Below, piece by piece: positions 17,684 through 36,278 of a stretch of 36,800 bases of DNA. Position numbers and translations under genes: made by a program. The notes under the pieces are model-generated. The model was not told the origin of the DNA and did not search any database. It was given only the letters and a program-made list of their open reading frames with translations. Origin of the DNA: Lachnospiraceae bacterium Zagget2 (GTDB lineage Bacteria > Bacillota > Clostridia > Lachnospirales > Lachnospiraceae); the NCBI GenBank assembly GCA_001941045.1, contig MSHD01000012.1, positions 1 to 36,800 of the forward strand. The letters are read 5' to 3'. The first letter of the stretch is position 1; every line of letters begins with the position of its first letter.

Positions 17684-17686
17684 ATA

Positions 17687-18775: not shown

Positions 18776-18838
18776 GTCTTTTTCCTCCATTTTTGATGCT
18801 TTTTATGATCTGTTTTCGTGCAGAGCCCGGCTCCGGAC

Positions 18839-18876
18839 AAAAACAAAACCGTCCCAGGTTTTATCCTGAGACGGTT
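18839..18876 (-). terminator. regulated terminator of the Trp T-box leader
   Basis: Arms cctgagacggt (18865-18875) and accgtcccagg (18848-18858) form an 11-bp stem with one G-U pair and a 6-base loop. TTTTGTTTTT follows on the minus strand. It lies 20 bases downstream of the T-box motif, as expected for the terminator that competes with the T-box antiterminator. Confidence 0.92.
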
Positions 18877-19108
18877 ATAATCATCAATTATAATCGCGGT
18901 ACCACTCAACTTGACTCTTGTGTCCACTTTTGCACGCACAACCATGCGCTCCTTATTGATAACGGGTCAGGTTCCCGGCAGCGCCTACTCTTTGCATTTC
19001 AGGCTGCCCTCGAAAGGCCATTCAGCAATCCACTCCATACCGCAATTCCACCATCTGCGGCTCTCTGTGATCTCGTGTGAGAGCTTACTCTTCTTTCTCA
19101 ACGGTTTC
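18839..19108 (-). ncRNA. T-box riboswitch, specifier TGG (tRNA-Trp)
   Basis: On the minus strand the leader carries the T-box core TGGTACCGCG (18895-18904), just upstream of a regulated terminator. Stem I is recognisable. AGAGAGC forms the distal bulge, and CCGCA/TGCGG encloses the GATGGTGGAA apical loop. The specifier loop CTGAATGGCCTTTCGAGG puts TGG at 19018-19020 in the codon position. T-boxes bind the matching tRNA, and uncharged tRNA favours antitermination. The gene that follows is a TrpX-like lipoprotein, agreeing with Trp. The discriminator-pairing base is T (TGGT), which would wobble with the G73 usual in bacterial tRNA-Trp. Confidence 0.9.
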
Positions 19109-19123
19109 TCTTGATTCTTGTTT

Positions 19124-19180: not shown

Positions 19181-21589
19181 TTACAGTGTCTGCTCCGTCC
19201 TCGCGATGATATCGTCCTGCGTCTGCCGCGAGAGCACGTTGAAGAACGCGCTGTAACCCGCCACGCGCACGATCAGATCCTTGTGATCCTCCGGATGAAC
19301 CTGTGCATCCAGCAGCGTCTCCCGCGACACGACATTGTACTGTACATGATAGCCGTGAAGCCGGTTGAAGAATGTTCGCAACAGCGCGATCAACTTTGTC
19401 TTGTTCTCTTCCTTCGACAGGAGCTGCGGCGTCACCTTCTGATTCAGCAGAACACCGCCCGTGATTGCGCGGGTGTCCAGCTTTGATACCGACTTGAAGA
19501 CTGCTGTAGGACCGCTCTGATCCATTGAATGGCTGGGCGAGCATCCCTCCGCGAGCGGCTCACCGGCATGACGACCGTCCGGCGTGGCGAGCGTCCCTCT
19601 TCCCTGCCCCACATTTGCGGAGATGGAGGAAGTCCCCGCGTAGCGGATGCCTCCGATCGGTCCCCTCCCGAAGCGGGTATTGGGATACTTTTTGATCTCC
19701 TCAATGTAGGTCGCGTAGGCGTCCACGACAAGCTGATCCACATAGTCGTCGTCATTACCGTACTTCGGAGCCTCCTCGATCAGCATTTCCCGGATCCGTT
19801 CGCCTTCCTCGCCCTCAAAATCGGACATCAGCGCGTCCCAGAGCTGCTTCGTCGTCAGCTTCTTCTCTTCAAATACAAGTTTTTTGATCGCCGCCATGGA
19901 GTCCGCCAGATTTGCGATGCCCACCTGGAGGCCGCTGATGAAGTCATAGACCGCGCCGCCCTCCTTCAGAGTCAGGCCTCTGCCGATGCAGTCCTCGCAG
20001 AGTGCAGAGCAGAGTACATCCGGCACATCCTCCTCCAGCACCATATCGCAGGCATTCTCGATGATCACGCTCTGCCGGGTAAACTCTTTAATGATTTTGT
20101 CCCAGGCGGCTTTTACCTCATCATAACTCGTCATATCCTCAAAACGGCCCGCCCCGTCCATCAGTTTTGTCCCGGAAGCCGGATCAACGCCATCATTCAG
20201 TGCGATCAGGAACGACTTCGGGAAATTCAGGAAGCTCATTCCCGTACAGCGATAGCCCCATTTCCCCGGAACCGCGGTCTCAACGCAGCCGATCGCACTG
20301 TAATTGTACGCGTCCTCTTCCTTCACGCCGCGGTCGATGAAGGACGGAATGATGATCTCATCATTGTTAAAGGCCGGCATACCGAAGCCGAGCTTCACGA
20401 CCTCGATCGCCTCATTCATAAAGTCGTCGCTCAGTCCCGCGTGATAGCGCACCGTCAGGTTCGGCTGCGGCAGCCTTGTCTGTGCCACACTCTTAAGGAT
20501 CAGATAACTCATTGGATTGACTGCATCTTTCTTGTCCGGCGTCTGCCCGCCCACCGTCACATTCTGATAGAGCGGCGACCCCGCACTGAACTGCGTATGG
20601 CTCCAGCTGCGGATCTTGTTGATTGTAAATGTCTTGAGCCAGAGATTCGTCATCAGCTCACAGGCGCTCTCCTCTGTAATCAGACCCTTTTTCAGATCCG
20701 CCTCATAATAGGGATAGAGATACTGGTCCATGCGCCCATAGGACAGGGAGTGCCCGTTCGACTCGATCTGCAGCACGAGATGCACGAGCCACATGGACTG
20801 CACCGCCTCATGGAAAGTCTCCGCCGGGCCGTATGGCACCTTTCCCAGTATGCGCGCCATCTCCGTGAGTTCCGCCGCGCGGGAGGCGTCCGCGGTCTTC
20901 GCCTGCTCCATCGCCAGCTGCGCGTAGCGCTCCGCAAAGTGTTTCACCGCCTGGATCACGATCTGTATCGCCTCATAAAAATAATATTTTTTGAGCTGCT
21001 TATAATCTGTAAGATCGAGCTTCGCCTCCTCTTCCCGGGCGCGCCGTTCGAAATCCACAAGGCCCTTTTCCATCACGGCCGAGTACTCCACTGCAATGTG
21101 CGCGTCCCCCGACGTGATATTTCCCTCCGCCTTGATGATTCCCAGGTCATAGTACACGCGGCTCTCCGGCGGCAACGCCGCCAGCCCTTTGTCCAGAGTC
21201 GTATTATGCTCCCAATAGGGCGCGATCTCGCGAAGCGTCTGCTTCGTCTCCTCCGAAATATAGAAGACGTCCCCGTCCCGCTTTTCAAACTCATCCAGTT
21301 CCCTTATCACCCAGTCCATCGCATACTCCGGGAAAATCGGCGCGGAACGGTTGCTGGAGGCCTGATTTCCCGCCAGCAGGGTGTCATCCTCTATATAGAT
21401 CGTCATATGCTCCAGTATATTTTCGAGCATGTAAGCACGCTTCAAAATGACGGGCTTATCCGCGTGCAGCTTATAACTCTCCGTTGTCAGCACAGCTCTC
21501 TGCGCACAGACCTGCGGCTTTGCGTTCAACAGCTCCTCACGATAATGCTGCATCCTGGGCGTCAATGTTCCAAAATGTCCTTCCATCAT
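19181..21589 (-). CDS. glycyl radical enzyme, YbiW-like (candidate 1,5-anhydroglucitol-6-phosphate lyase)
   Basis: An 802-residue pyruvate formate-lyase superfamily enzyme. The active-site cysteine is Cys435 in SAIGCVETAVPGKWGYRCTG, with Glu437 as the dehydratase/lyase-type base. The glycyl radical site is Gly778 in VRVAGYSAFF. The C-x-E arrangement, not the Cys-Cys pair of true PFL, shows it is not a formate lyase. Motif by motif it resembles E. coli YbiW (GKWGYRCTGMSF, TSSISANV, QDDIIART). As I recall, YbiW cleaves the ring C-O bond of 1,5-anhydroglucitol-6-phosphate to 1-deoxyfructose-6-phosphate. A hydroxyproline-dehydratase-type or other diol-dehydratase activity is the main alternative. 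It is divergent from its presumed activase at 21854 and has AGGAGG upstream of the start. Confidence 0.9.
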   Translation of the reverse strand: MMEGHFGTLTPRMQHYREELLNAKPQVCAQRAVLTTESYKLHADKPVILKRAYMLENILEHMTIYIEDDTLLAGNQASSNRSAPIFPEYAMDWVIRELDEFEKRDGDVFYISEETKQTLREIAPYWEHNTTLDKGLAALPPESRVYYDLGIIKAEGNITSGDAHIAVEYSAVMEKGLVDFERRAREEEAKLDLTDYKQLKKYYFYEAIQIVIQAVKHFAERYAQLAMEQAKTADASRAAELTEMARILGKVPYGPAETFHEAVQSMWLVHLVLQIESNGHSLSYGRMDQYLYPYYEADLKKGLITEESACELMTNLWLKTFTINKIRSWSHTQFSAGSPLYQNVTVGGQTPDKKDAVNPMSYLILKSVAQTRLPQPNLTVRYHAGLSDDFMNEAIEVVKLGFGMPAFNNDEIIIPSFIDRGVKEEDAYNYSAIGCVETAVPGKWGYRCTGMSFLNFPKSFLIALNDGVDPASGTKLMDGAGRFEDMTSYDEVKAAWDKIIKEFTRQSVIIENACDMVLEEDVPDVLCSALCEDCIGRGLTLKEGGAVYDFISGLQVGIANLADSMAAIKKLVFEEKKLTTKQLWDALMSDFEGEEGERIREMLIEEAPKYGNDDDYVDQLVVDAYATYIEEIKKYPNTRFGRGPIGGIRYAGTSSISANVGQGRGTLATPDGRHAGEPLAEGCSPSHSMDQSGPTAVFKSVSKLDTRAITGGVLLNQKVTPQLLSKEENKTKLIALLRTFFNRLHGYHVQYNVVSRETLLDAQVHPEDHKDLIVRVAGYSAFFNVLSRQTQDDIIARTEQTL

Positions 21590-21646
21590 CTCAACCTCCT
21601 TGTAGTTCTTGTAAGCGAATCCGTCGTTGACCGCACGGTTTTTACG

Positions 21647-21664
21647 CTTTCTGTCAGTTTCGTG
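21647..21664. promoter_or_regulatory. candidate DeoR-type operator at the YbiW-like promoter
   Basis: CTTTCTGTCAGTTTCGTG lies just downstream of the -10 box. It shares CTTTCTGTCA with the region upstream of the DeoR gene (29453-29468). DeoR-family sugar regulators often bind CTTTC/TTTCGTT-type repeats, so this is a candidate operator. Confidence 0.35.
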
Positions 21665-21669
21665 TTTTT

Positions 21670-21698
21670 ATTATAATAAATATTTCATTTGAAGTCAA
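21670..21698 (-). promoter_or_regulatory. promoter of the YbiW-like enzyme gene
   Basis: On the minus strand TTGACT (21693-21698) and a perfect TATAAT (21670-21675) are 17 bases apart, about 80 bases upstream of the 21589 start. The region is far more AT-rich than the flanking genes. Confidence 0.85.
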
Positions 21699-21736
21699 TA
21701 TATATTTCGTTCGTAACTTATTTATTTTCTTTTTTA

Positions 21737-21765
21737 TTTACAGGATCACTTTTTTATGGTATACT
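21737..21765 (+). promoter_or_regulatory. promoter of the glycyl radical enzyme activase gene
   Basis: TTTACA (21737-21742) and TATACT (21760-21765) are 17 bases apart, 88 bases upstream of the activase start at 21854. Together with 21670-21698 it forms a divergent promoter pair in one AT-rich intergenic region. Confidence 0.8.
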
Positions 21766-21766
21766 G

Positions 21767-21786
21767 ACTATCATAATAGTAACTAT
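21767..21786. promoter_or_regulatory. three alternating ACTAT/ATAGT half-sites at the activase promoter
   Basis: ACTAT (21767-21771), ATAGT (21776-21780) and ACTAT (21782-21786) form two overlapping inverted repeats with 4- and 1-base spacers, directly after the -10 box near the expected transcription start. This is a plausible repressor site. I did not see it at the other promoters of the island. Confidence 0.4.
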
Positions 21787-21853
21787 TCAAAACAGCAGGC
21801 ATTGAAACCGCCTTCTTCGTCTGAACTGTTACTCAAAAAAAGGAGGCGTTGAC

Positions 21854-22624
21854 ATGGCTCTGACCGGACAGATTTTTAACATACAAAGATTCAGCATCAA
21901 CGACGGCCCCGGGATCCGATCGACCATATTTTTCTGCGGATGTCCCTTAAGCTGCCGCTGGTGTTCCAACCCCGAATCGCAGAACCGCTGCCGGCACGAA
22001 GCGCTCGCTTCCGGCGATCGCAAGCTTATCGGCCGCGAATGGACCGTCAGCGAGGTACTGGACGAGGTGGAGAAAGATCGTGATTTCTACGAGGAATCAG
22101 GCGGCGGTATCACGCTGTCCGGCGGGGAGGTTTTGCAACAGCACGCATTCGCTGAAGCGCTCCTTCGCGAAGCGGGCAGGCATTCCCTGCACCGTGCTGC
22201 CGAAACGACCGGCTACGCTTCCCACGAAATATTCGCGGAGTTTATACAGAACATTGATCTTCTTCTGTTTGACATGAAGCATTGCGATCGCGAAATTCAT
22301 TATCAGAAAACCGGCGTATACAACGATCAGATTGTGGAAAACATGCGCTTTGCCGTCAAGAACGATGTACCGGTCATCGCGCGGATTCCCGTGATTCCGA
22401 AGTTCAATGCAAATTTAAAGGCGGCAAGAGGCATGGCGGCTCTTCTCAGAGAAATCGGTATCCACGAAGTTCATCTGCTCCCCTTCCATCAGCTCGGAGA
22501 AAAAAAATATGAGCAGCTGAAGCTGCCCTATGAGATGAAGGGTGTCTCGCAGCTGCATCCGGAAAACCTTCAGAACTATCTTCAGGTCTTCCTGGATGCA
22601 GGGCTCGACTGTTCCTTTCATTAA
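21854..22624 (+). CDS. glycyl radical enzyme activase, radical SAM, short form
   Basis: A 256-residue activating enzyme that uses SAM and a 4Fe-4S cluster to make the glycyl radical on its partner. The cluster motif is C30-x3-C34-x2-C37 in CGCPLSCRWCSNPES. GGGITLSGGEVLQQ contributes to SAM binding. The N-terminal RFSINDGPGIRST is typical. Unlike most activases of C-x-E glycyl radical enzymes, including YbiY as I recall it, it has no ferredoxin-like insert with two extra clusters: only one cysteine (Cys46) follows in that region. It is therefore PFL-activase-sized. The presumed partner is the divergent YbiW-like enzyme. AGGAGG precedes the ATG. Its stop is seven bases from the convergent ROK gene's stop. 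Confidence 0.9.
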   Translation: MALTGQIFNIQRFSINDGPGIRSTIFFCGCPLSCRWCSNPESQNRCRHEALASGDRKLIGREWTVSEVLDEVEKDRDFYEESGGGITLSGGEVLQQHAFAEALLREAGRHSLHRAAETTGYASHEIFAEFIQNIDLLLFDMKHCDREIHYQKTGVYNDQIVENMRFAVKNDVPVIARIPVIPKFNANLKAARGMAALLREIGIHEVHLLPFHQLGEKKYEQLKLPYEMKGVSQLHPENLQNYLQVFLDAGLDCSFH

Positions 22625-22631
22625 GACTTAT

Positions 22632-23576
22632 TTACAATACCAGTTCCGCGGCGCCGATGATTCCAAAATCCTTTTTCAGTTCCGCGAAGCGAAACTCCAC
22701 AGGCATACCGATCTTGTCGTAGGAGTCAAACTCCGCGCGAACCTGATCGAACAACAGATTTCCAAAATTTGTCAGCCCGCCCCCGAGCACGAAGGTATTG
22801 ATATTCAGAAGCTGATAAATATTGTACAGGCATACTCCGATATAGTGAGCCATGGACTGTACCATCTCCTCTGCCAGCGGATCCTTTCGCTGCGCTGCAG
22901 CCAGAAGATGCTCGCAGCGAAGATCCGTGATCCCCTCCATCTCACTCTTTTCACCCTCCAACATCCGGATTTTCAGATGTCTGGGCACATATCGGCCACT
23001 CGCGTAAGACATAAAGCAGCCCCGGTTGCGGCAGCCGCACAGCACACCCTCATCCGGCGTCGCCAGCATATGTCCGCACTCTCCTGCCCATCCGTAACTT
23101 CCGCGGAACAGTTCTCCATTGATAATAAGGCCACTCCCGATGCCGGTGCTTACAGCCACATAAACCATGTGTTTCAGGCCGCGTCCGGCCCCTCTTCGAT
23201 ACTCGGCCAGCGCTGCGGCATTTCCGTCATTGTCCAGTACAACCCGGACGCCCAGACGCTCCTCAATATAATCTCTCATACCGAAGTCGCAGACCTTCGG
23301 AAGTGCGGAGGTCAGGAAAATGTACCCCTTATCGAACAAAATGTAGGAGGGCATGCAGATCCCAACGCCCTTCAGGTTCTGAATACTCAGATCGTTCTTC
23401 TCAAGAAGTTCCCGGATCGTAAGGATCAGTCTATCGGAGAATGCCGGGCCGTCCAGTTCCAGGTCGGAGGGATGCTGGACACGATCCGTCATCTCACCGT
23501 CTTCACCAAACAGACCGTAAGCCACCTTCGTGCCTCCCGCATCGATGCCGATCACATAGCCTTTGTCCTTCTCCAT
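22632..23576 (-). CDS. ROK-family sugar kinase
   Basis: A 314-residue ROK protein, probably a cytosolic sugar kinase. The ATP phosphate loop IDAGGTK is at residues 11-17, the catalytic Asp is in LDNDGNAAAL (Asp117), and the second phosphate loop is VSTGIGSGLI. The zinc site is present as GECGH (His169) plus C180-x-C182-x4-C187. The segment after it reads GCFMSYASG where family members usually have GCLExxASG. There is no helix-turn-helix N-terminus, so it is a kinase and not a ROK repressor. The start at 23576 shares one base with the previous stop (TGATG) and has GGGAGA upstream. It ends the long minus-strand run and probably phosphorylates the imported sugar. Substrate not shown. Confidence 0.9.
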   Translation of the reverse strand: MEKDKGYVIGIDAGGTKVAYGLFGEDGEMTDRVQHPSDLELDGPAFSDRLILTIRELLEKNDLSIQNLKGVGICMPSYILFDKGYIFLTSALPKVCDFGMRDYIEERLGVRVVLDNDGNAAALAEYRRGAGRGLKHMVYVAVSTGIGSGLIINGELFRGSYGWAGECGHMLATPDEGVLCGCRNRGCFMSYASGRYVPRHLKIRMLEGEKSEMEGITDLRCEHLLAAAQRKDPLAEEMVQSMAHYIGVCLYNIYQLLNINTFVLGGGLTNFGNLLFDQVRAEFDSYDKIGMPVEFRFAELKKDFGIIGAAELVL

Positions 23577-25369
23577 CAGTCGTGTCTCCCTTCCCTCTGC
23601 CAAAGTCCCAGACATCCAAAATAAATCGCGCCAACTGCCTGCGCAAACTGCGCCACCGTATAATCGGGATGCGCTTCCAGCTGCTGCATAAGCGGTGTGT
23701 TCGCCAGACTTTCATCCGCCGCGTACTGGCGCAGATCCGGCTCTCTCCTCGCGGCTCCCTCGCACATCAGCGCAAAGCAGGCGGGAGACTTCACAAGTCT
23801 TCCAAACAGGGAACGTTCCTTCGCCTCCGGGCGGAGAATATACTCGGTCTCCTCCCACGTCACCGCGAGATACTCGCCCACCTGACGAAAGATCTCCGCA
23901 CAGGCTCCCTGCTCCGCGTCCGAGGCCTTTTTCATGAAAAATTCCAGGCAGGGCTTTCGCATGTCTTTCGGCTCCGTCGGCACAATGATCCGCTCGCCGT
24001 TCCGGACAAACAGTCCCCGGTCAAACGCCTCCTTCAGCGCCCCCGGATCTCCTGCAGGCAAATCCTTCATGGCCAATCGGAAGACTCCGGACTGACAGGT
24101 GTATTTTTGCAGTGTCCCGGGAAGCTGCGTGTTGAAGTTGTTGACGCTGCGCACATCGTTTGAGTCGTATTCCCTCTGGCCGTAACTTCCCAGATCAATG
24201 ATAAAGTTGTAAACCTCGAGCGGAATCTCCGGTATGGAGCCATCCGGGCGCACCCAGCCGGTCCCCAGCTCCGTTCCAAGCGTGTGAGCAAAGAATCCAC
24301 GCGTAACATCCGCTCCGACCGCAGCCTGCTCTACCGCAGCCGTAAACGCAGCCATAGGGCCATCGTTTGTATTCATGACCACGCCGTCTTCCGTCACAAA
24401 CGCTCTGAGCATATCGCAAAGCGGCGTGATCTTCGCGAACTGTTTCTCGTAATCCAGCTCTTTATTTTCCCTCATGCCCCGGGTTTTGAATGTCTCTCCT
24501 CCGACGATAAGGTTCCGGATCACAACGTCCGGGAAGCTCAGTCCAATGGCATCAAAATTCGCGAGACATTCTCCCGCCTCCCGCTCCATCGCTTCGATAC
24601 CGAGGTTCATTTTCTCCGCCGACGCTTCCCTCCTGAGCGCCCTCTCATCCACGAGCGCTCCCTTCCCTGCACGCACAAGACTGGCCGCGGCGCGCATCAG
24701 CCGCACCAGCAGCAGCACCGGATCTATCAGCTGCTCCGCGCGCAGAAAAGCCGCCGGATACCAGTCAAATTCCTTGCAGACCGCAAGCTTTCCTTCTACG
24801 CTGGCCGTCAGCTTGATATCGGTTCCGCCAATATCGATACCCAGTATCATCTTATCCTTGGCAATCGCAGGCAGGGAGGTGAACACCGGTTCCTTCCCAC
24901 TCCCCGTTTCCGGCTCTGAAAGCTCCGGTTTTTCCCGGATATCGTTGATTTCAAAGCGAAAATGCTCCGAACCTCCGCTCAGCACCGCCAGCACTCTCTC
25001 ATTCACATTCAGGCACTTCCCATAACCGCTCCGCTCTTCCTTCGGGAGAAATGTCTGGAACACCTCGTCCAATCCCTCTGCAAGCGCAAGCGTCCGCGTG
25101 TCGTTCCGATCAAGATATACCCCGATCTTCACTGCGCCCAGCGCAGACAGAATGTTATAAAGCATGGCATATACAAAGGAAGCGACAAACTCCTCTTCCT
25201 CCTCATGGCAAACCTCCGGCAGAAGCAGCGGAAAATCCCGCCTGCTTCCGTCGTAGAGCATTACCAGCAGGTGAAACGGTCTCGTGCCGCTCTTCTGAAA
25301 CGCCGCACGTACATCCGTAATATAGACAGGCTCATCTTCTTTTGCCTGTTTCAAAAACTCTGCAAGCAT
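23576..25369 (-). CDS. large ROK-like (ASKHA-fold) protein with an unrecognised N-terminal domain
   Basis: A 597-residue protein. Residues 1-150 form a domain I do not recognise, with a Glu-rich stretch and a mixed alpha/beta look. A linker at 150-172 (PELSEPETGSG) leads to an ASKHA nucleotide-binding core. Phosphate loop 1 is LGIDIGGTDIK (176-186), NTNDGPMAAF carries the candidate catalytic Asp, and HTLGTELGTGW is phosphate loop 2. The ROK zinc motif is absent. The C-terminal 150 residues are helical and unassigned. It sits four bases after the activase gene and is coupled to the ROK kinase, so it is likely a second sugar kinase or an ATP-driven accessory factor. Function unknown. Confidence 0.75.
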   Translation of the reverse strand: MLAEFLKQAKEDEPVYITDVRAAFQKSGTRPFHLLVMLYDGSRRDFPLLLPEVCHEEEEEFVASFVYAMLYNILSALGAVKIGVYLDRNDTRTLALAEGLDEVFQTFLPKEERSGYGKCLNVNERVLAVLSGGSEHFRFEINDIREKPELSEPETGSGKEPVFTSLPAIAKDKMILGIDIGGTDIKLTASVEGKLAVCKEFDWYPAAFLRAEQLIDPVLLLVRLMRAAASLVRAGKGALVDERALRREASAEKMNLGIEAMEREAGECLANFDAIGLSFPDVVIRNLIVGGETFKTRGMRENKELDYEKQFAKITPLCDMLRAFVTEDGVVMNTNDGPMAAFTAAVEQAAVGADVTRGFFAHTLGTELGTGWVRPDGSIPEIPLEVYNFIIDLGSYGQREYDSNDVRSVNNFNTQLPGTLQKYTCQSGVFRLAMKDLPAGDPGALKEAFDRGLFVRNGERIIVPTEPKDMRKPCLEFFMKKASDAEQGACAEIFRQVGEYLAVTWEETEYILRPEAKERSLFGRLVKSPACFALMCEGAARREPDLRQYAADESLANTPLMQQLEAHPDYTVAQFAQAVGAIYFGCLGLWQREGRHD

Positions 25370-25373
25370 TCTC

Positions 25374-26267
25374 TCACTCCTTTATAATATGGGGGATGCC
25401 CTCCTCGCGGAGAATCGCATAATACACCGCCATTTCCTCGGCGGACAATATGCCGCCCTCCACAGGATACTCCTCCTCCAGCGCCGCATATTTACTGCGG
25501 CACAGCGGATTGAAATTCAGCAGTTCATATTCTGCGTCCGGGTCCACGCCGTAAATATAGTGGGCGATCCCACGGATATTGTCCTCGAAAGCCGTATAAT
25601 CGGGTATCAGCGGCGTGCGCACCAGAACGTCAGCTCCCCGCCTCACAAGCATTTCATAGTTTTCAAGAATGAGATGGTTATCTACACCCAGATACTTTCG
25701 ATGCAGTTCCGGATCCAGGATCTTGATATCGATCAGAAAATGATCTGTCACCGGAATCATCGCCTCAACTGCCTCGCGCGGCGCGTACAGACAGGTCTCC
25801 ACCGCAGTGTCCACACCCGCTTTTTTGCAGCGGGCGAGTACTTCCACGGCAAACTTCCACTGGGACAACGCCTCTCCTCCTGAGAGCGTCACGCCTCCAT
25901 GTTCTCCAAAAAAAACACGATCGCGCAGAAGTATCCTCGCGGCTTCCTCCGCCTCAATCTCCCGTCCCGTTCGCTCAAGCGCTCCTCCGGGGCAGGTCTT
26001 CTCACAGATTCCGCACAGATCACAGCGTTCCCGATTCACATGAATTCGATCATCCAGCGTCAGCGCGCCATGTGGGCAGGCAGCCACGCAGGTTCCGCAG
26101 CGCAGACATTCCTGCGGACTGTACCAGAGCCAGGGAGCTCGCTTCATACCCTCCGGATTCTGACACCAGGGACAGTGCAGCGGACATCCTTTCAGAAACA
26201 GGGTGCTGCGCAGCCCGCCCCCGTCATGAACCGCGAAGCGCTTGATATCAAAAATGACGCCGGTCAT
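25374..26267 (-). CDS. glycyl radical enzyme activase, radical SAM with ferredoxin insert (PflC-like)
   Basis: A 297-residue activase for the PflD-like enzyme encoded immediately upstream. The radical-SAM motif is C28-x3-C32-x2-C35 (GCPLHCPWCQNPEG). Two additional 4Fe-4S clusters are predicted by C54-x2-C57-x2-C60-x3-C64 and C82-x2-C85-x2-C88-x3-C92. GGVTLSGGEALSQ forms the SAM glycine motif. The N-terminus reads FAVHDGGGLRST where relatives usually have DGPGIR. Its ATG overlaps the glycyl radical enzyme stop by four bases (ATGA), a strong sign that the two work together. Confidence 0.95.
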   Translation of the reverse strand: MTGVIFDIKRFAVHDGGGLRSTLFLKGCPLHCPWCQNPEGMKRAPWLWYSPQECLRCGTCVAACPHGALTLDDRIHVNRERCDLCGICEKTCPGGALERTGREIEAEEAARILLRDRVFFGEHGGVTLSGGEALSQWKFAVEVLARCKKAGVDTAVETCLYAPREAVEAMIPVTDHFLIDIKILDPELHRKYLGVDNHLILENYEMLVRRGADVLVRTPLIPDYTAFEDNIRGIAHYIYGVDPDAEYELLNFNPLCRSKYAALEEEYPVEGGILSAEEMAVYYAILREEGIPHIIKE

Positions 26268-28624: not shown

Positions 28625-28649
28625 CCTGTCCCTCCTTTTGCAGACCTTG

Positions 28650-29411
28650 TTATACTTCGACCATCTCCAGACGGATCCGCTTTTTTTTCAACGACTCCTC
28701 ATAGATTGAAGGTAAGTTCGAATCTGTCACGACCATATACACTTCTTCGGGATCAAACAGCTTCGCCACACTGCGCTTTCCGAATTTTTCCGATGGTGTC
28801 AACACAATGACCTTGTCGGCCTGGCGCGCGATATCGCGTACAGTACTACAGCGGGTATGATTCACGTTTGTAAATCCGCCCTCCTCCGTATAACCGTCAA
28901 TCCCAACAAATATTTTATCAACATGATATTCCCGTGCACACAGCTTTGTAACCGGTCCCGTCGTGACCTCTGCAACCACATCGTAATCACCGCCCAGCAA
29001 AACCACCTTCACAGTAGATACGCTTTTCAGATGCCGCGCGATATAGGCAGAATTTGTGATTACGGTCACATCGCTGACCACGGCCAGCTCCATTGCAAAC
29101 AGCGCACATGTGGAGCCGGACTCTATCATCACAGTTTCTCCCGGCTGTACCAGGGACACTGCTCTTCTGGCAATTTCTTTCTTCTCGAGAAAATTCACAG
29201 TCATCCGGGAGTCGATCGCATCTGAGGAAGCTTTCGCCGCGTATCCATGCTGCCTTTGCAGCAGTCCCTGCGACTCCAGTTCTATCAGATCCTTCCGGAT
29301 CGTGACCATGGAAATACGCAGCGTTTCCGAAAGCTCCTTTACGCTGATCCGTTCTTTTTCGTTTACCAGTTTCAAAATCTCGAGATGACGTTCCTTCATA
29401 TTTTGTGACAC
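28650..29411 (-). CDS. DeoR/GlpR-family transcriptional regulator
   Basis: A 253-residue DeoR-type regulator, usually a repressor relieved by a sugar phosphate. The N-terminal winged helix reads RHLEILKLVNEKERISVKEL, then SMVTIRKDLIELESQGLLQR as the recognition part. The C-terminal sensor domain has IESGSTCALFAMEL, a GGDYD segment and FVGIDGYTEEGGFT, typical of the ribose-isomerase-like effector fold. It is followed by the PflD-like enzyme after 25 bases and preceded by its own promoter. An effector such as an anhydro-sugar phosphate or 1-deoxyfructose-6-phosphate would fit the context, but this is inferred. Confidence 0.93.
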   Translation of the reverse strand: MSQNMKERHLEILKLVNEKERISVKELSETLRISMVTIRKDLIELESQGLLQRQHGYAAKASSDAIDSRMTVNFLEKKEIARRAVSLVQPGETVMIESGSTCALFAMELAVVSDVTVITNSAYIARHLKSVSTVKVVLLGGDYDVVAEVTTGPVTKLCAREYHVDKIFVGIDGYTEEGGFTNVNHTRCSTVRDIARQADKVIVLTPSEKFGKRSVAKLFDPEEVYMVVTDSNLPSIYEESLKKKRIRLEMVEV

Positions 29412-29435
29412 TCCTTGTCCTTTAGTCCTTATTTC

Positions 29436-29463
29436 TTCATAAAGGATACCGCCTTTCTGTCAA
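29436..29463 (-). promoter_or_regulatory. internal promoter ahead of the DeoR-PflD-like run
   Basis: On the minus strand TTGACA (29458-29463) and TATGAA (29436-29441) are 16 bases apart in the 96-base gap between permease and regulator. The region includes CTTTCTGTCAATTTTT (29453-29468), similar to 21647-21664. Autoregulation by the DeoR protein is possible. Confidence 0.5.
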
Positions 29464-29507
29464 TTTTTCAACAAGGTTGGCTCAAATATTACCAGCTGCC
29501 CCACTAA

Positions 29508-30476
29508 TCAGACACGCTCTCTTTTCAGCTTCCGTCCATAGCAGTCGCCTGCAATGATAAGCACGATCAGAATACCCTCAAAGAGTGTCTGGTAATAACT
29601 GTCTATTCCCAGCTGATTCATACAGTTGGTAAGCATCTGAATGACGAGCAGACCGATGAAGCTCTCCACAACGCCGCCGACGCCTCCCGCGAAGGACGTG
29701 CCGCCGATCACACATCCGCAGTTGACCAGCATGCCGGTCGAATCCCCGTACACGGAAGAACCGGTATTCATGCGGGACGCCAGCAGCACTCCAGCCAGCG
29801 TCGCGGTCACGCCGCTGATGACGAAAGCGGACCATTTGATCGGCACAACCTTGATTCCCGAATATTTCGCAACTTCATAATTTCCGCCGATAGCGTAGCA
29901 GTTCCGCCCATAGCTCGTGAAACGGAGCAGACAGAAGAAAATGACGAAGAGAATCGCCATATAGACGACCAGCGACGGGATTGACCCGAAAAACTTTCTG
30001 TTGGAAATCTGCATGAAATCCAAGCTTGTGCAGGTGATCGGATGTGCGTCCGTCAACTGCTGGCAGATACCTTTCAACAGCATGCCCATGCCGAGCGTGA
30101 TGATAAAGGGCTCTGTCTTCTGGTGCACGACCAGAAAGCCATTGATAAAGCCGACCACCGCGCCGCTCAGGAGCGCCACGACGAACGCCAGCCAGATCGG
30201 ATATCCGTTGTTCACGATCATGACTGCGAGAATACCGCCCAAGCACAGCGTACCGCCGACCGACAGATCGCAGCCTCCACAGAGAACCGCCACCGTCACG
30301 CCGAAGGCAACGATCTCAAGGATCGCCGTGGAGCGAAGCATATCCAGCCAATTGTACGCTGTATAGAAGGTCGTCTGTGGGAAAATCATGAAGATCATCA
30401 TCGCAAAGATGGCGATAACGGCCTTCTGTTTCGATATTACTTTCCACACTTTGTTTATACTTACATTTGCACTCAT
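29508..30476 (-). CDS. ribose-type ABC importer permease (second)
   Basis: A 322-residue RbsC-type membrane permease with about nine or ten hydrophobic segments. The N-terminus is cytosolic (SINKVWKVISKQKAV). Family features include CDLSVGGTLCLGG, INGFLVVHQKTEPFIITLGMG, NCYAIGGNYEVAKYSGI and CVIGGTSFAGGVGGV. I start it at 30476 because GGAGGGTGAGAAC precedes that ATG; the ATG 16 codons upstream lies inside the preceding gene. With the first permease it should form a heterodimeric channel. Substrate probably a monosaccharide or anhydro-sugar. Confidence 0.92.
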   Translation of the reverse strand: MSANVSINKVWKVISKQKAVIAIFAMMIFMIFPQTTFYTAYNWLDMLRSTAILEIVAFGVTVAVLCGGCDLSVGGTLCLGGILAVMIVNNGYPIWLAFVVALLSGAVVGFINGFLVVHQKTEPFIITLGMGMLLKGICQQLTDAHPITCTSLDFMQISNRKFFGSIPSLVVYMAILFVIFFCLLRFTSYGRNCYAIGGNYEVAKYSGIKVVPIKWSAFVISGVTATLAGVLLASRMNTGSSVYGDSTGMLVNCGCVIGGTSFAGGVGGVVESFIGLLVIQMLTNCMNQLGIDSYYQTLFEGILIVLIIAGDCYGRKLKRERV

Positions 30477-30489
30477 GTTCTCACCCTCC

Positions 30490-31458
30490 TTACAGTTCCT
30501 TGCGGTTGTCAAGCCAGATCGCAATCACCAGCACTGCGCCGCGCATGATCGTCTGCATGTAGGTAGACAGATTCAGCATGTTCATACAATTCCCAAGCAT
30601 CGTGATCAGCACAACGCCGAGCATTGTACGCAATACGCTTCCTTTTCCGCCTTTCAGCGTCGTTCCGCCGACGACCACGCACAGGATCGCGTTTGTCTCG
30701 TAGCCGCTGCCGCTCGTGGCCGTCGCGGTCGTAACACGCGAGAACAGCATGATGGAGGCAAGTGCCGCCATGATTCCCTCAATCGTATAGGCCAGACGCA
30801 TGGTTCCCTCCACATTGAAGCCGGCCAGGAAAGCCGCGTCCTTATTTCCTCCGAGGATGGAGATCGAACGCCCCCAGATCGTCCGGGTCAGGAAAAAGTG
30901 CATGATGACCAGTACAATGAGAAACACAATCAGCGAGACCGGGATAATGCCGATGCTCACGGAACCGAGCGTTGTGAAAATCGTATAGGGTTTGGTACTG
31001 CTCGTAATCCGAAGTGTTTCCGACTTCGTATACAGAAGCGCGAGAGCCGTGTACACGGAACTCATACCATAAGTGATAAAGAGCACCTCCGCCTGCGTCA
31101 TGGCACCGCACTTCGTCAGGATCAGGCCGTTCAGGTAGCCAAGCAGAGCGCCGAGCAGGATGCCGAAGATCAGCGCACCCACCTGTCCGAGAAAGCTGAT
31201 CATCCCCATCGTGAGGACACCCACGAGGCTGATCACGCCAACATTTGACAGATCGATGAACCCGGCGATGATCACGAAGGTCATACCGAGGGCAGCGAAC
31301 GGAAGAGGTCCGAGCTGACGCAGTATGTTATTCAGGTTGGCCGCGCCCAGAAACTTTGGTTCTACAATGGCCGTCACGACGATCAGCACAAGGATGCCGC
31401 ACAGGACCAGATTCTGCTGAAGAAGCTTCAGAGCGGAATTTGCATTGATTTTTTTCAT
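30490..31458 (-). CDS. ribose-type ABC importer permease (first)
   Basis: A 322-residue RbsC-type permease, the same length as the second one but clearly different in sequence. Motifs are FIDLSNVGVISLVGV, LNGLILTKCGAMTQAEVLFI, SISILGGNKDAAFLAGF and CVVVGGTTLKGGKGSV. It starts at 31458 (MKKINANSALK) with GGAGGG upstream; the longer reading frame from 31551 runs back into the ATPase gene and has no start support. The second permease begins 13 bases after its stop. No sign of damage. Confidence 0.92.
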   Translation of the reverse strand: MKKINANSALKLLQQNLVLCGILVLIVVTAIVEPKFLGAANLNNILRQLGPLPFAALGMTFVIIAGFIDLSNVGVISLVGVLTMGMISFLGQVGALIFGILLGALLGYLNGLILTKCGAMTQAEVLFITYGMSSVYTALALLYTKSETLRITSSTKPYTIFTTLGSVSIGIIPVSLIVFLIVLVIMHFFLTRTIWGRSISILGGNKDAAFLAGFNVEGTMRLAYTIEGIMAALASIMLFSRVTTATATSGSGYETNAILCVVVGGTTLKGGKGSVLRTMLGVVLITMLGNCMNMLNLSTYMQTIMRGAVLVIAIWLDNRKEL

Positions 31459-31474
31459 GTCTCTCCCTCCGTTC

Positions 31475-32953
31475 TCATCCGATTGCTTTGTCCATGATCT
31501 CTGTGGCGCTCGCTTCTTCGGGATTGAACTCGCCGGTGATGCGTCCGTCACAGATCGTCAGCACACGGTTGCTCATATTCAGCACCTCCGGGAGTTCGGA
31601 GGAGATCATGATGATCGCCCCTCCCTCTTCCACGATCTTATTCATCAGGACATAGATCTCATACTTGGCGCCGACGTCGATGCCTCTCGTCGGCTCATCC
31701 ATAATGAGAATCTTCGGGTCGCGCTCCATCCAGCGTCCCACGATACACTTCTGCTGGTTTCCTCCGGAGAGGGATACCACTTTCGTATCCGGGGACGGCG
31801 TCTTGATCCCCAGCGCCTCGATCTGACGCTCCGCGATCTCGCGCTCCTTCGAACTGTCCACGACTCCATGATGCGTCAGGTCTGACAGAGATGCCAGCGT
31901 GATATTGTTCTGCACGGAGAACGGCAGGATCAGACCTTCTCTCTTCCTGTCCTCCGGGACGAGCGCCATACCGGCCTTCTTCGCCTGCTTCGGTGACGAC
32001 ACCCTGACCGGCTTTCCCTCGAGAAGCGTCTCATGCCCTTTCACTTTGTCTGCGCCGTACACCGCGCGGATGATCTCCGTGCGTCCCGCGCCCACCAGGC
32101 CGACCAGACCGAGAATCTCGCCTTTATGTAATGTAAAGCTAATATTATGCAGTTTTCGTGTGTTCAGGTTCTTCACCTCGAGCAGTGGCTCGCCGACGAA
32201 ATGCGCCCTCGGCGGATATTCATTCTCAATCGTACGGCCGACCATCTTCGCGATCATCTCGCCTCTGGTCAGCTCCTCCACCGGCTTCACATCGATGACG
32301 CAGCCGTCGCGCATGATCGCAACGATGTTGCAGTACTCGAAGATTTCGTCCAGCTTATGACTGATATAGATAACGGACACGCCCCTGTCGCGCAGCTGAT
32401 TGATGATAATTCCGAGCTTTTTCAGCTCCTCCGACGTCAGCGAGCTGCTGGGTTCGTCCATAATGATCAATTTTGAGTCGAAAGAGAGCGCTTTCGCGAT
32501 CTCCACCATCTGCATCTCCGACGCGCTCAGATCTCCCACCAGCGAATTGGTATTGATCGAGCTTCCGATGCTGTCGAGCAGTTCTCTTGCTTTTTTATGC
32601 GTCCCGCGCATCCCATGATTCAGACTGAAACGGCCCAGGAAAATATTCTCTCCCACCGTCATCGTGTTCACCAGATTAAATTCCTGATAGATAATACTGA
32701 GCCCACGCTCAAGCGCCTGAATCGGCGTCGTGTGCTCGATCGTCTCACCGTTGAAAATAACGGTTCCCTCGTCCTTCTCATACACCCCGGACAGAATCTT
32801 CATCAGCGTGGACTTGCCCGCTCCGTTCTCCCCCACGATGCCGTAGACGACGCCCCGCGGTACGGAAAGGGACACGTGATCCAGCGCCTTCACCCCAGGA
32901 AAATATTTACAGATGTCTTTTACCTCAAGGATGTAGTCGTTTGCATTTTCCAA
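31475..32953 (-). CDS. ribose-type ABC importer, double ATP-binding protein
   Basis: A 492-residue RbsA/MglA-type protein with two fused ABC domains. The first has Walker A GENGAGKST, signature DLSASEMQMVEIAKAL and Walker B LIIMDEPSSSLT. The second has GLVGAGRTE in place of a normal Walker A (usual in this family), SGGNQQKCIVGRWM and ILIMDEPTRGIDVG. I propose the TTG at 32953 (LENANDYILEVK, read as Met) as start, because GGGAGG lies eight bases upstream. The ATG at 33031 has no ribosome binding site and would place a strong hairpin inside the gene. It energises uptake through the two permeases. Confidence 0.9.
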   Translation of the reverse strand: MENANDYILEVKDICKYFPGVKALDHVSLSVPRGVVYGIVGENGAGKSTLMKILSGVYEKDEGTVIFNGETIEHTTPIQALERGLSIIYQEFNLVNTMTVGENIFLGRFSLNHGMRGTHKKARELLDSIGSSINTNSLVGDLSASEMQMVEIAKALSFDSKLIIMDEPSSSLTSEELKKLGIIINQLRDRGVSVIYISHKLDEIFEYCNIVAIMRDGCVIDVKPVEELTRGEMIAKMVGRTIENEYPPRAHFVGEPLLEVKNLNTRKLHNISFTLHKGEILGLVGLVGAGRTEIIRAVYGADKVKGHETLLEGKPVRVSSPKQAKKAGMALVPEDRKREGLILPFSVQNNITLASLSDLTHHGVVDSSKEREIAERQIEALGIKTPSPDTKVVSLSGGNQQKCIVGRWMERDPKILIMDEPTRGIDVGAKYEIYVLMNKIVEEGGAIIMISSELPEVLNMSNRVLTICDGRITGEFNPEEASATEIMDKAIG

Positions 32954-32983
32954 CCTTGCTGCCTCCCCTCTTCCTGCTTGGAA

Positions 32984-33021
32984 ATCGGCTGGCCCCGGTT
33001 TCTGCGCCGAGGCCAGCCGAT
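32984..33021 (-). repeat. intercistronic stem-loop between binding protein and ATPase genes
   Basis: Perfect 11-base arms (atcggctggcc, 32984-32994, and ggccagccgat, 33011-33021) flank a 16-base loop. There is no good T-run after it. It lies between the binding-protein stop and the proposed TTG start of the ATPase. Such hairpins commonly stabilise the upstream mRNA or trim downstream expression so that more binding protein is made. Confidence 0.75.
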
Positions 33022-33058
33022 CATAAGTCATACTGATTCGGTTTTATTGATAAAACTC

Positions 33059-34120
33059 CTACCACTCCGGATACGGATAATCGTCGACCGTGTCAATCGT
33101 GATGATCTGCGGCTCGGTCCAGACAACGTCGCTCTCCAGCTCCTCGCCGGCCAGCAGAGTGGTGATGCAGTCAAATGCGTCGATCGTCATCTGCGAGAAG
33201 CTCTGGCCGATGCACAGTGCCTGCGTGCCTTCCTTCACCTGGTCAAATCCAATCGCGCAGCCGTCCACGCCGACGGAGTAGATCGTGGTCGGATCATAGC
33301 CCGCAGCTTTGATCGCCTCAATGCAGCCGGTCAGGCCGACATCCCAGTGGCAGTATACAGCGTCGATCTCATCGCCGTACTTCACGAGGAAGTCTTCCAT
33401 GATCGCCATGGCGTCGTCACTCGACCACTCCTCACAGTCCTTGGAATCCAAAACCGTGATGTTGCTGCCCTCGATCTCGTCCATGAAGCCGTCATGACGG
33501 TTGATCTGCGCAGCATGTCCGGACTGTCCACCGACTTCCACGATATTCGCTCCATCCGGGAACGCTTCCATCAGAGTCTGCGCGGCGATCTGGCCGAACA
33601 GATAGTCGTCGGTGCCGCACATAAAGTCACGGTAATCCGTGTTGTCATATCCATCCGGAAGTTCGGACGAATACAGGCCGATCAGCACGCCGGCCTCTCT
33701 CGCCTCCATGATGGACGGGATCAGCGCGCTCGGGTCAGTCGGATTCATGCAGATCGCCGCATAGCCCTGAGAAATACAGGTGCCGATCGCGGAAGCGCCG
33801 TTCTGCGCGTCGTAATCTTCCTCAAATACGGTAACCTCGAAGCCATACTCCTCGGCATAGGCCTGGAACTGGGTCCACGCATAAGCCTGGGAAGCATTCG
33901 ACAGGGACTGGGTCAGGAAAGCGACCTTCACGGTCTCTCCGGACGACGCCGTCTCAGTCTCCTCAGCCTCGGTACTCTCCTCGGCTTCTTCAGTCTCCTC
34001 AGCGGCCTCTTCCTCAGTCTCCTCGGTGGTGGTGGTCGTCGTGTCCGAGCTGCTGCTTCCACAGGCAACCAGGCTGAATACCATCGCCGCGGTGAGCAAC
34101 ATTGCTACACACTTCTTCAT
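33059..34120 (-). CDS. sugar-binding lipoprotein of a ribose-type ABC importer
   Basis: A 353-residue lipoprotein of the Peripla_BP_4 type (RbsB-like). The signal peptide starts MKKCVAMLLTAAMVFSL and the lipobox is SLVAC, with Cys anchored. A Thr/Glu-rich spacer (about residues 25-60) precedes the two-lobed binding domain, which begins TVKVAFLTQSLSNASQAYAW and includes AICMNPTDPSALIPSI, GQSGHAAQINRHDGFM and YSVGVDGCAIGFDQV. The start has AAGGAGG upstream. It heads the importer operon and its promoter lies about 110 bases upstream. The ligand is not known; context suggests a 1,5-anhydro-hexitol or related sugar. Confidence 0.92.
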   Translation of the reverse strand: MKKCVAMLLTAAMVFSLVACGSSSSDTTTTTTEETEEEAAEETEEAEESTEAEETETASSGETVKVAFLTQSLSNASQAYAWTQFQAYAEEYGFEVTVFEEDYDAQNGASAIGTCISQGYAAICMNPTDPSALIPSIMEAREAGVLIGLYSSELPDGYDNTDYRDFMCGTDDYLFGQIAAQTLMEAFPDGANIVEVGGQSGHAAQINRHDGFMDEIEGSNITVLDSKDCEEWSSDDAMAIMEDFLVKYGDEIDAVYCHWDVGLTGCIEAIKAAGYDPTTIYSVGVDGCAIGFDQVKEGTQALCIGQSFSQMTIDAFDCITTLLAGEELESDVVWTEPQIITIDTVDDYPYPEW

Positions 34121-34203
34121 CTTTTTTCCTCCTTATTTTGTGGTTTTTTATAATCAACAGGATTCTCCCGTTAATTACTGTTCATCAAAAGAATACAATT
34201 TTT

Positions 34204-34216
34204 CTTTCGTTTGCTC
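34204..34216. promoter_or_regulatory. candidate DeoR-type operator at the importer promoter
   Basis: CTTTCGTTTGCTC sits just downstream of the importer -10 box and resembles the CTTTC/TTTCGT element at 21647-21664. Such T-rich CTTTC sites are typical of DeoR-family operators, so both may be bound by the 28650-29411 regulator. Confidence 0.3.
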
Positions 34217-34230
34217 TTTTTTATTTATAC

Positions 34231-34259
34231 ATTATAAACAAATATAATTTCTTTTGAAA
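34231..34259 (-). promoter_or_regulatory. promoter of the ribose-type importer operon
   Basis: On the minus strand TTTCAA (34254-34259) and a perfect TATAAT (34231-34236) are 17 bases apart in a very AT-rich 241-base gap. This leaves a leader of about 100 bases before the lipoprotein start at 34120. Confidence 0.75.
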
Positions 34260-34325
34260 CCCACAAAACAAGACAAAAGGTATACAATCCTGAACTTCTC
34301 ATGCTTTCAAAAACAAATTTTCCAT

Positions 34326-34352
34326 AAAAAAACGCCCCTTACGGGCGCTTTT
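34326..34352 (-). terminator. terminator of the AraC-lactonase gene
   Basis: On the minus strand AGCGCCC-GTAA-GGGGCGT forms a compact hairpin followed by seven T. It starts ten bases beyond the stop at 34362, separating this gene from the importer operon that follows in the same direction. Confidence 0.9.
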
Positions 34353-34361
34353 AGAAGTCCA

Positions 34362-36278
34362 TCAGATTTTCCATAGTGCCAGAACGGTTACGCCGCCGAC
34401 ATCCCTCACTTCAGAATGATATGTCAATGCTCCGGAAAACAGATCAACCGCAAAAATGCAGATATTATCCGTATCCTGATTGCCCACCAGCAAAAATCTC
34501 CCGTCAGGCGACAGGACAAAATCTCTTGGAATCTCACCGCCGCTCGAAATATCCTGCACAAACTCCAGGAGACCGTCGGTTCGAACCGAAAAAACATACA
34601 GCCTGTTCACACCCCGCACGGAAACGTAAAGCCAGCGCCCACATGGATGGAGTCGAATGGCTGCGCCCAGACAGAAAGCCGCGTCTCCGGCTGAAACTGT
34701 CGAAAGCGTCTGCACAAGTTCCGCAGCTCCGGACTCCGGATTGTAATTGTAAACATTAATCTGGCATGCCATCTCCGTCATAACATACAGATGCTCTCCT
34801 GCTGCGTCAAAGACAGCATGGCGAACACCCTGCCCGGGAATCCCGGCGATATCCTGCCTGCCGCAGGGTATGAGCCAGCCATTTTTCCAATCTGCCTGAT
34901 AGCACAAAAGACGATCCAGCGCCAGATCCGTCACATATACATACCCGCCATCCGGCGAGCACAAAAGCTGATGCGGATGTGGACTTTCCTGGCGGGACAC
35001 GTCCATTCCGCGCCCGACATGGCGCAGCAGACAGGAGGCCGAACCCAGACGATGATCTGCTTCCAGCGGAAATACGCAAAAATTTCCTCCATGGTAATTC
35101 GTTGCCATCAGATAAGACCCGTCCGGGGACAGTGCAAGAAAGCAGGCGTCCGCACCACCGGTAAACTGTCTGTTCAGAAGCTGAAGCTCCCCGTTGTCCG
35201 CTTCGATATGGTATACGGAAACGGTGGAGCCCGGAATTCCGCCGTACTCCTTCAGTTCATTAACGCAGTAGAGATAAGGTGCCCGCGGATCAGCAAGGAT
35301 ATAGGAAGGATTCGGTGTGGATTTTGTGACAGAACACAATTTCATCATGCCGCTCTCCTCATCGAAAGAAAAGCAGGAAATTCCACGGCAGCGTCCCGGC
35401 ACTGTTTCCCCCGAACCCATCAGCGTCGGTTCCGTATACCCTCCTGTAAAATAAAAAAGTTCACTCATTTCAGTTCTCCCCCCCCGCAGGTTTTTACAGT
35501 TTCTGCGAAAAGCGGCCGGCGATTCCCCCACCTGCTCCTTGAATACGCGGTAAAAATATTTTGGATTTTCAAAACCAAGCTGATAGGCAATCTCGCTAAC
35601 GTCCAGATCCGTATCCACCAGAAACTGCTTCGCCCGTTCAACGCGCAGCCGGTTAATATAAGATATCACCGTGCTGCCGGTTCTCTGCCGGAATTTACGG
35701 GACAGCCAGGACTTGCTGACATGCTCGAGCTTTGCCAGCTCATCCAGACTGATCTTCTCAATACAATGATTTTGTATATATTCCAGCACACAATCCAGAA
35801 ACTGCCCCTCCTCCTTGGATTCCGATTCTGCGCGGAGGACTTCAATCAGCAGGATCTTGATCGCGTATTCAAGCAGGATCGAGTTGGGCTTCTCTCTCTT
35901 TGCCTCCTGATAGACCTTCAGAAACGCGTTTTTGAGAATACTGTCCTGTTCATGAATCCGCAGAAAATCCGGGATAATCAGCTCCGGAATATCAATCCAG
36001 AGACAGATGATCTCTCTCCTGCGGGCAGCTTCCTTTTCGTCAAGATGCTCCATGTGTGCCGGACAAAGTGTGACATCATAAAGAGAAAACGAGACAGTCG
36101 TCCCGGAAATATTCACTGCCCCTTTCCCATCTACAAAATAAATCAACTCAATATAAGGATGGGAATGGCGCGTAAAATTCCACAGACTGCTGCTCTCATC
36201 AAACCATTCGCAGAACTTCAGCTTTGGTCTGCTGTTATAGATCACCTCACACTGCTCGTCCAGATTCATATTCCTCAT
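34362..36278 (-). CDS. AraC-family regulator read in frame into a beta-propeller lactonase (apparent fusion)
   Basis: A 638-codon open frame with two parts. Residues 1-270 are an AraC regulator: an N-terminal cupin sensor (FTRHSHPYIELIYFVDGKG) and two helix-turn-helix motifs (ISLDELAKLEHVSKSWLSRK and DVSEIAYQLGFENPKYFYRV). Residues 271-638 are a complete 368-residue seven-bladed lactonase (COG2706 type) starting MSELFYFTGGYTEP, with ESPHPHQLLCSPDG and LSPDGSYLMATNYHGGN. The join is a run of eight G, and the lactonase has its own ribosome-binding sequence and ATG at 35468. With seven G the AraC frame would end in an ATGA overlap, so these are probably two coupled genes or a slippage-controlled pair. 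It is adjacent to the importer and may control it. Confidence 0.85.
   Translation of the reverse strand: MRNMNLDEQCEVIYNSRPKLKFCEWFDESSSLWNFTRHSHPYIELIYFVDGKGAVNISGTTVSFSLYDVTLCPAHMEHLDEKEAARRREIICLWIDIPELIIPDFLRIHEQDSILKNAFLKVYQEAKREKPNSILLEYAIKILLIEVLRAESESKEEGQFLDCVLEYIQNHCIEKISLDELAKLEHVSKSWLSRKFRQRTGSTVISYINRLRVERAKQFLVDTDLDVSEIAYQLGFENPKYFYRVFKEQVGESPAAFRRNCKNLRGGRTEMSELFYFTGGYTEPTLMGSGETVPGRCRGISCFSFDEESGMMKLCSVTKSTPNPSYILADPRAPYLYCVNELKEYGGIPGSTVSVYHIEADNGELQLLNRQFTGGADACFLALSPDGSYLMATNYHGGNFCVFPLEADHRLGSASCLLRHVGRGMDVSRQESPHPHQLLCSPDGGYVYVTDLALDRLLCYQADWKNGWLIPCGRQDIAGIPGQGVRHAVFDAAGEHLYVMTEMACQINVYNYNPESGAAELVQTLSTVSAGDAAFCLGAAIRLHPCGRWLYVSVRGVNRLYVFSVRTDGLLEFVQDISSGGEIPRDFVLSPDGRFLLVGNQDTDNICIFAVDLFSGALTYHSEVRDVGGVTVLALWKI
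35478..35485. other. homopolymer of eight C (G on the coding strand) at the AraC/lactonase junction
   Basis: The coding strand reads CTGC, then eight G, then AGAACTGAAATGAGT. As written, the frame runs through. One G fewer gives stop TGA overlapping the lactonase ATG (ATGA). One G more gives an earlier TGA (GAG AAC TGA). The same G-rich stretch also serves as the ribosome binding site for the internal ATG at 35468. The length of this run therefore decides fusion or separate proteins. Confidence 0.8.

Follow-up and report, generated by a model that had tools for sequence, protein, structure and literature searches.

The question raised by the locus discussed here is how 1,5-anhydro sugars might be broken down through glycyl radical chemistry when the genes surrounding the radical enzymes encode an ATP-binding cassette (ABC) importer and kinases. 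The locus occupies positions 19181..36278 of a 36,800-nucleotide stretch (the window; contig C12:1-36800) from the 3.34-Mb genome of Lachnospiraceae bacterium Zagget2, which is assembled in 66 contigs. According to a passage of PMC12441222, the E. coli pathways start with a phosphotransferase system (PTS), whereas no PTS match was found in the present locus with Pfam or NCBIfam models, an importer and kinases being encoded instead. We consider it probable that the locus encodes the radical-mediated 1,5-anhydrohexitol pathway in a form that is independent of the PTS. The gene inventory of a preliminary description of this DNA, comprising two glycyl radical enzymes (GREs) with the C-x-E motif, two radical S-adenosylmethionine (SAM) activases, an importer with two permeases, a DeoR regulator, a ROK kinase, a large ROK-like protein, and an AraC/lactonase unit, is borne out in full by long, intact open reading frames (ORFs), which have family matches in Pfam, NCBIfam, and PDB comparisons with the exception of the large ROK-like protein (ROKL).

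Read from the right along the minus strand, the genes encode the AraC/lactonase unit, the binding protein, the ATPase, the two permeases, the DeoR protein, GRE2, the activase ACT2, ROKL, and the kinase ROK1, following which come the activase ACT1 on the plus strand and then GRE1 on the minus strand. In the proposed pathway, the RbsABC-type importer would take in 1,5-anhydro sugars, which ROK1 and ROKL, acting as two ATP kinases, would phosphorylate at O6, with ROK1 serving GRE1 and ROKL serving GRE2. ACT1 and ACT2 would each generate the glycyl radical on the partner GRE. Of these two oxygen-sensitive enzymes, GRE1 would then ring-open 1,5-anhydroglucitol-6-phosphate and GRE2 a compound akin to it, with 1,5-anhydromannitol-6-phosphate the likeliest candidate, and an aldolase would split the resulting 1-deoxyfructose-6-phosphate to glyceraldehyde-3-phosphate and hydroxyacetone. 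The DeoR protein would govern the importer and lyase promoters.

Judged from its sequence, GRE1 (19181..21589, minus strand) is a YbiW-type enzyme and thus a predicted 1,5-anhydroglucitol-6-phosphate lyase. It scores 909 bits against 6xs4, 898 against each of the YbiW chains 8id7 and 8yjn, and 611 against glycerol dehydratase, shares 52.9% identity with E. coli YbiW, and falls with the latter in a 19-row fork with support of 100/100 in a tree of 43 GRE rows, from which two duplicates were left out (L033, the same genome as L011/L012). The 19 rows of this clade are concordant at eleven checked positions, save for one at which 18 of 19 agree, and the E. coli YbiW loops GKWGYRCTGMSF, GRGPxGG, and YAGTSSISANV are all found in GRE1, besides the Cys, the Glu, and the radical Gly. 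The YbiW-like character claimed earlier for one of the two lyases is thereby upheld. In both GREs the cysteine loop contains GCVE and the radical glycine lies within VRVAGY, and the positions of Cys433, Glu435, and Gly763 of glycerol dehydratase are kept. Both activases exceed the TIGR02494 cut-off: ACT1 (21854..22624, plus strand; 268 bits, with a PF04055 match) presumably acts on GRE1, and ACT2 (25374..26267, minus strand; 297.5 bits, with two 4Fe-4S motifs) presumably acts on GRE2. ACT1 is devoid of the ferredoxin-like insert found in ACT1-type relatives of 298-335 residues, and the SAM-cluster motif alone is kept in all eight GRE1 activases of the lineage (window, L014, L029-L033, L035).

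GRE2 (26264..28624, minus strand) scores 640 bits against PflD (8yjo) and 588 against glycerol dehydratase. In the same tree it lies in an 18-row clade (100/100) that is sister to, and not placed inside, the 4-row PflD clade (100/100), the two being joined at a fork with support of 100/98; because long branches meet there, the depth and order of this join are less sure than the membership of the clades. When the 4 PflD rows are compared with 16 core GRE2 rows, 16 columns are common to both and missing from the YbiW consensus, glycerol dehydratase, and the CutC row, and the NASS motif (Ser281) and Gly339 of the PflD clade are kept in 16/16 core GRE2 rows, position 281 being Met in L051 and L074. 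The PflD active-site loop PGRTYGLHD is not present in GRE2, which has HGNTLAWSD; Asp447 is kept, and the position of His446 is Ser in every core row. The phylogenetic placement proposed in the preliminary description thus put GRE1 with YbiW and left GRE2 in a clade of its own, so that its PflD-like label is apt for the shared NASS and Gly339 and fails for clade membership; and that both epimers are handled is still something we infer, since GRE2 belongs to a sister clade and not to PflD itself. From these residues, GRE2 probably works like PflD even though it stands outside the PflD clade, and its substrate is most likely 1,5-anhydromannitol-6-phosphate, the compound that is presumably also cleaved by the enzyme of 8id0, listed in the PDB as a formate C-acetyltransferase. 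Identification of either GRE as glycerol dehydratase, pyruvate formate-lyase, or choline lyase was rejected in view of the scores and the tree.

The sequence of ROK1 (22632..23576, minus strand) bears on the nature of the sugar. The protein passes the PF00480 cut-off with 200 bits, has ROK glucokinases as its best PDB sequence matches, and carries DxGGT, the catalytic Asp, and ExGH, but the last position of the family motif, given as CxCGxxGCx(E/D) in a passage of PMC5458393, is occupied by Met (GCFM). In a survey of 20 sources, of which 14 have Met, 5 have Glu, and one has no such motif (those for the window and L033 being read from a six-frame motif scan), GC[FL]M was found in 14/15 ROK proteins from lyase-containing stretches, three of them at ~40% identity, and GCFE in all five ROK proteins that adjoin ROKL where no GRE is present. 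A passage of PMC10031466 describes Asp187 of NagK as engaging the 1'-OH, and the spacing suggests that this residue corresponds to the altered position of ROK1. The missing Glu/Asp would therefore be compatible with a sugar having no 1-OH, which the Met change appears to fit.

ROKL (23576..25369, minus strand; 597 residues) has an extra N-terminal part of ~165 residues and no Pfam or NCBIfam match, PF00480 giving none in the window protein and a match at E 0.22 in only 1/16 members. The C-terminal part is nevertheless predicted to have the ROK fold in a structure model. ROKL has a single match in the genome of the window, and by sequence it looks like a new kinase branch, as GRE2 looks like a new branch of radical enzymes. 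When each species was represented by a single genome, a scan gave 15 ROKL loci, in 9 of which GRE2 (in one case fragmentary) and ACT2 are the genes immediately upstream. As a side observation, a second ROKL context is seen in L096-L100, where its neighbours include a gene for a ROK kinase and one that is UroD-like and where the stretch contains no GRE.

The importer is encoded on the minus strand by a sugar-binding protein gene (33059..34120; PF13407, 161.5 bits), a double ABC ATPase gene of the XylG/AraG/RbsA type (31475..33031; 550/534/531 bits to the XylG/AraG/RbsA models, all below the equivalog cut-offs), and the permease genes PERM1 (30490..31458; PF02653, 104 bits) and PERM2 (29508..30476; AraH/RbsC-type NCBIfam models, below the cut-offs). 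Judging by alignable starts, PERM1 probably begins near 31458, PERM2 near 30476, and ROK1 at 23576, all inside the listed ORFs. Importer, GRE2, ROKL, and ROK1 occur together in 11 loci (window, L029-L033, L035, L037, L046, L047 with L104, L095), which span four families and include GRE1 in 9/11; L012 and L094, from the same genomes as L033 and L035, were not recounted. Because 10 further genomes have the same set in the stretches examined, its grouping is not due to chance. ROKL was detected in 3/250 genomes of the family and 11/391 of the class, GRE2 in 11/392 genomes of the order (at E 1e-200), and GRE1 in 10/299 of the family (at E 1e-250), absences in such searches being soft, as in many genomes just the best two or three candidates were scored.

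Two loci of other make-up are informative. L044 carries, on one strand, genes for an iron-containing alcohol dehydrogenase (Fe-ADH), GRE2, ACT2, ROKL, the aldolase FSA, a binding protein, and two permeases, and L050 carries GRE2 with frwB- and frwC-like PTS genes and no match to ROK1 or ROKL in the stretch. The earlier proposal that ABC uptake and kinases replace the PTS agrees with these gene sets, importer, ROK1, and ROKL accompanying GRE2 in the 11 loci as opposed to the PTS-type L050. In total, three proteins of the window genome match the pyruvate-formate-lyase-like family, the third being encoded on contig C34, where copies of GRE1, ACT1, ROK1, and the DeoR gene (94, 91, 84, and 79% identity; L014 10483-15614) are found in a 20-kb stretch that has none of GRE2, ACT2, and ROKL. 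It is mainly this neighbourhood pattern, with L044 and L050 among the loci, together with C34, that leads us to suggest that ROK1 would pair with GRE1 and ROKL with GRE2.

Several observations weigh against the PTS-independent anhydrohexitol pathway as proposed. The C34 copy might be foreign, as contamination of the assembly is estimated at 3.35%. The lyase-linked ROK protein of L070 (26% identity to ROK1) is the one without the motif, ROKL occurs without a GRE in the stretch in L038-L043 and L096-L103 (some of those contigs being short), and GRE2 is 42.3% identical to PflD, the same value as between PflD and glycerol dehydratase (42.3%). A PTS enzyme I is encoded in the genome (588 bits vs a cut-off of 342). 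FSA and GldA catalyze steps of the E. coli anhydrohexitol pathway, and fsaA lies by ybiW and fsaB by pflD in E. coli; the present locus contains no aldolase gene, a point on which the preliminary description is silent, and no FSA match was found in the window or in L029-L037. The sole FSA-type protein of the genome, encoded on contig C24 and unlinked, shares 30% identity with a linked FSA and reaches 112 bits on TIGR00875, the cut-off of which is 246. In two other genomes with the same kind of locus (G836, G989), nothing matched FSA at E 0.001, and a third (G013) gave only a 34-bit match. The idea that the kinases are needed because the genome is without a PTS was rejected, given its enzyme I.

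Part of this evidence would be accommodated if GRE2 and ROKL acted on a compound other than 1,5-anhydromannitol, such as another anhydro-hexitol or polyol phosphate, with only the GRE1 half corresponding to the known pathway, an explanation that we hold to be a serious one, if on balance not the likely one. It would suit the separate clade of GRE2, the xGNxLxWSD loop type in the place of PGRTYGLHD, the 27 columns fixed differently between GRE2 and the PflD clade (one at the position of His446 and several in the loop that follows the catalytic cysteine), and the presence of ROKL in other sugar loci. FSA genes occur in 8/19 GRE1 stretches (L047, L051, L067, L069-L071, L073, L074) and 6/19 GRE2 stretches, the counts of 19 excluding L034 (a contig of 4 kb that carries part of GRE2) and two of the 19 GRE1 stretches (window, C34) sharing one genome; in the GRE2 stretches they are nearer GRE1 in L047, L051, and L074 and directly adjoin GRE2 in just three (L044, L048, L049). 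Those three, however, point to a product cleavable by FSA, and GRE2 keeps NASS, G339, NQxxxxQGHI, and FAGFPxG of the PflD clade, both of which speak for the anhydromannitol substrate. A more specific and rather doubtful version of the same idea is that GRE2 and ROKL form a new lyase/kinase pair for an undescribed anhydro-sugar phosphate, whose product, in lineages that have no FSA, would be processed by another route, perhaps by an AroE-like dehydrogenase that could take 1,5-anhydrofructose or a similar cyclic ketone as its substrate. A gene for such an AroE-like protein comes after PERM2 in all seven close-relative loci that cover that stretch (L029-L033, L035, L037) and in L095. Like shikimate dehydrogenase, its product passes the curated TIGR00507 cut-off (example, L012 4207-5070) and keeps the Lys and NTD motifs, and it differs in having xENPG in place of HSxSP in 8/8 locus copies, the Ser residues of AroE being those that hold the carboxylate. 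In each of 3 genomes checked, HSxSP is present in at least one further AroE, and the window genome has no ortholog of the AroE-like protein among its matches, the best being 36-37% identical.

It is unlikely, though worth weighing, that ROKL is no kinase but serves ROK1 as a sensor or as a partner that binds sugar. Its gene often adjoins a ROK kinase gene, no ExGH or cysteine-rich zinc motif was found in its sequence, and the extra N-terminal part would suit such a role, but D179, G181, K186, N335-D336-G337, and G365-T366-x-x-G369-x-G371 are invariant in 16 ROKL rows, and L044 has ROKL with no ROK1 match in its 20-kb stretch. The chance that the importer and kinases are an ordinary sugar operon (for ribose, mannose, or allose) merely adjoining the lyases seems small: the importer is RbsABC-like, a lyxose/mannose isomerase gene recurs nearby, and L071 has an allulose-6-phosphate 3-epimerase match over the cut-off, but importer, both kinases, and GRE2 recur together across the four families, ROK1 bears the Met change, and the promoter regions of the importer and of GRE1 share a short motif. 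That both GREs are ordinary glycerol or 1,2-diol dehydratases is very improbable, for although they belong to the same superfamily and reach 611 (GRE1) and 588 (GRE2) bits against glycerol dehydratase, GRE1 scores ~290 bits better with YbiW, in agreement with the tree, and a sugar importer, kinases, and in some relatives FSA surround both GRE types.

The short motif just mentioned concerns the possible control of the locus. TTTCGTTYG has only two matches in the window, at 21705 in the GRE1/ACT1 divergent promoter region (21590..21853; TTTCGTTCG at 21705-21713) and at 34205 in the importer upstream region (34121..34361; TTTCGTTTG at 34205-34213), and the block around it is conserved across 6 aligned upstream regions, a single mismatch being seen in that of C34 and in two others. 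The count alone is not beyond chance, because 22 of 100 shuffles also give two matches; the placement in both promoter regions is suggestive of candidate operators for the DeoR-family regulator (28650..29411, minus strand), whose best NCBIfam scores, 199 bits for YciT and 163 for AgaR, are both below cut-off and which has DeoR matches in related loci. A search of the upstream regions for exact inverted repeats gave nothing consistent.

The AraC/lactonase unit (34362..36278, minus strand; PF12833 and PF10282, the latter for a 7-bladed lactonase) is present in the window as a single 638-residue ORF; its parts are separate genes in relatives (L012, L032), and its link with the anhydrohexitol pathway is uncertain. 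At 35468, just past an eight-G run at the junction (35478-35485), the lactonase part has an ATG of its own, and in view of this ATG and the separate genes the fusion may be a read-through; a frameshift, slippage, or an assembly effect at the G run is possible. Among further neighbours, a gene of the D-lyxose/D-mannose isomerase family occurs in the L029, L030, and L033 loci and in L038 and L071 (near the locus or beside ROKL), that of the window genome being at L015 1133-1912, 1.1 kb past the window. An RmlD-like reductase gene recurs with the lyase genes in L046, L047, L052, and L053, beside FSA in the last three. A T-box leader (18864-19110, minus strand; 95.5 bits vs a gathering score of 93) lies just upstream of an ABC transporter operon (15970-18790).

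If the proposed pathway is true, a set of gut-type Clostridia would possess their own importer and kinases for 1,5-anhydro sugars, which would widen the range of their consumers, and the Met of ROK1 would provide a sequence mark for finding more such loci. It would also define a ROK-fold kinase branch and a GRE clade and raise the question of the missing aldolase.

Compared with known systems, the locus resembles E. coli YbiW/YbiY/FsaA in that GRE1 groups with YbiW at 53% identity and has FSA neighbours in some of its stretches; it differs in having an ABC importer and a ROK kinase with neither a PTS gene nor FSA, and in its activase, which is divergent from GRE1 and has no ferredoxin-like insert. 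With E. coli PflD/PflC/FrwBCD/FsaB/GldA it shares a lyase of the sister clade, accompanied in relatives by FSA and, in L044, by Fe-ADH, whereas GRE2 is just 42% identical to PflD, its active-site loop is altered, and kinases replace the PTS. Within the ROK family (PF00480), ROK1 is a member that departs from the others at the Glu/Asp position of the motif, and ROKL, the C-terminal part of which has the ROK fold in the model, is without that motif, carries an N-terminal addition, and stands outside the Pfam family. His164, Ser282, Asp447, Tyr339, and Tyr640 have roles in glycerol dehydratase, and the B12-independent enzyme of 1r8w, which we take to be that of Clostridium butyricum, is like GRE1 and GRE2 a glycyl radical enzyme with the C-x-E motif, its His164 and Ser282 positions being kept in both; it differs in the lower scores that it gives relative to YbiW or PflD, and the gene context of the present locus is one of phosphosugars.
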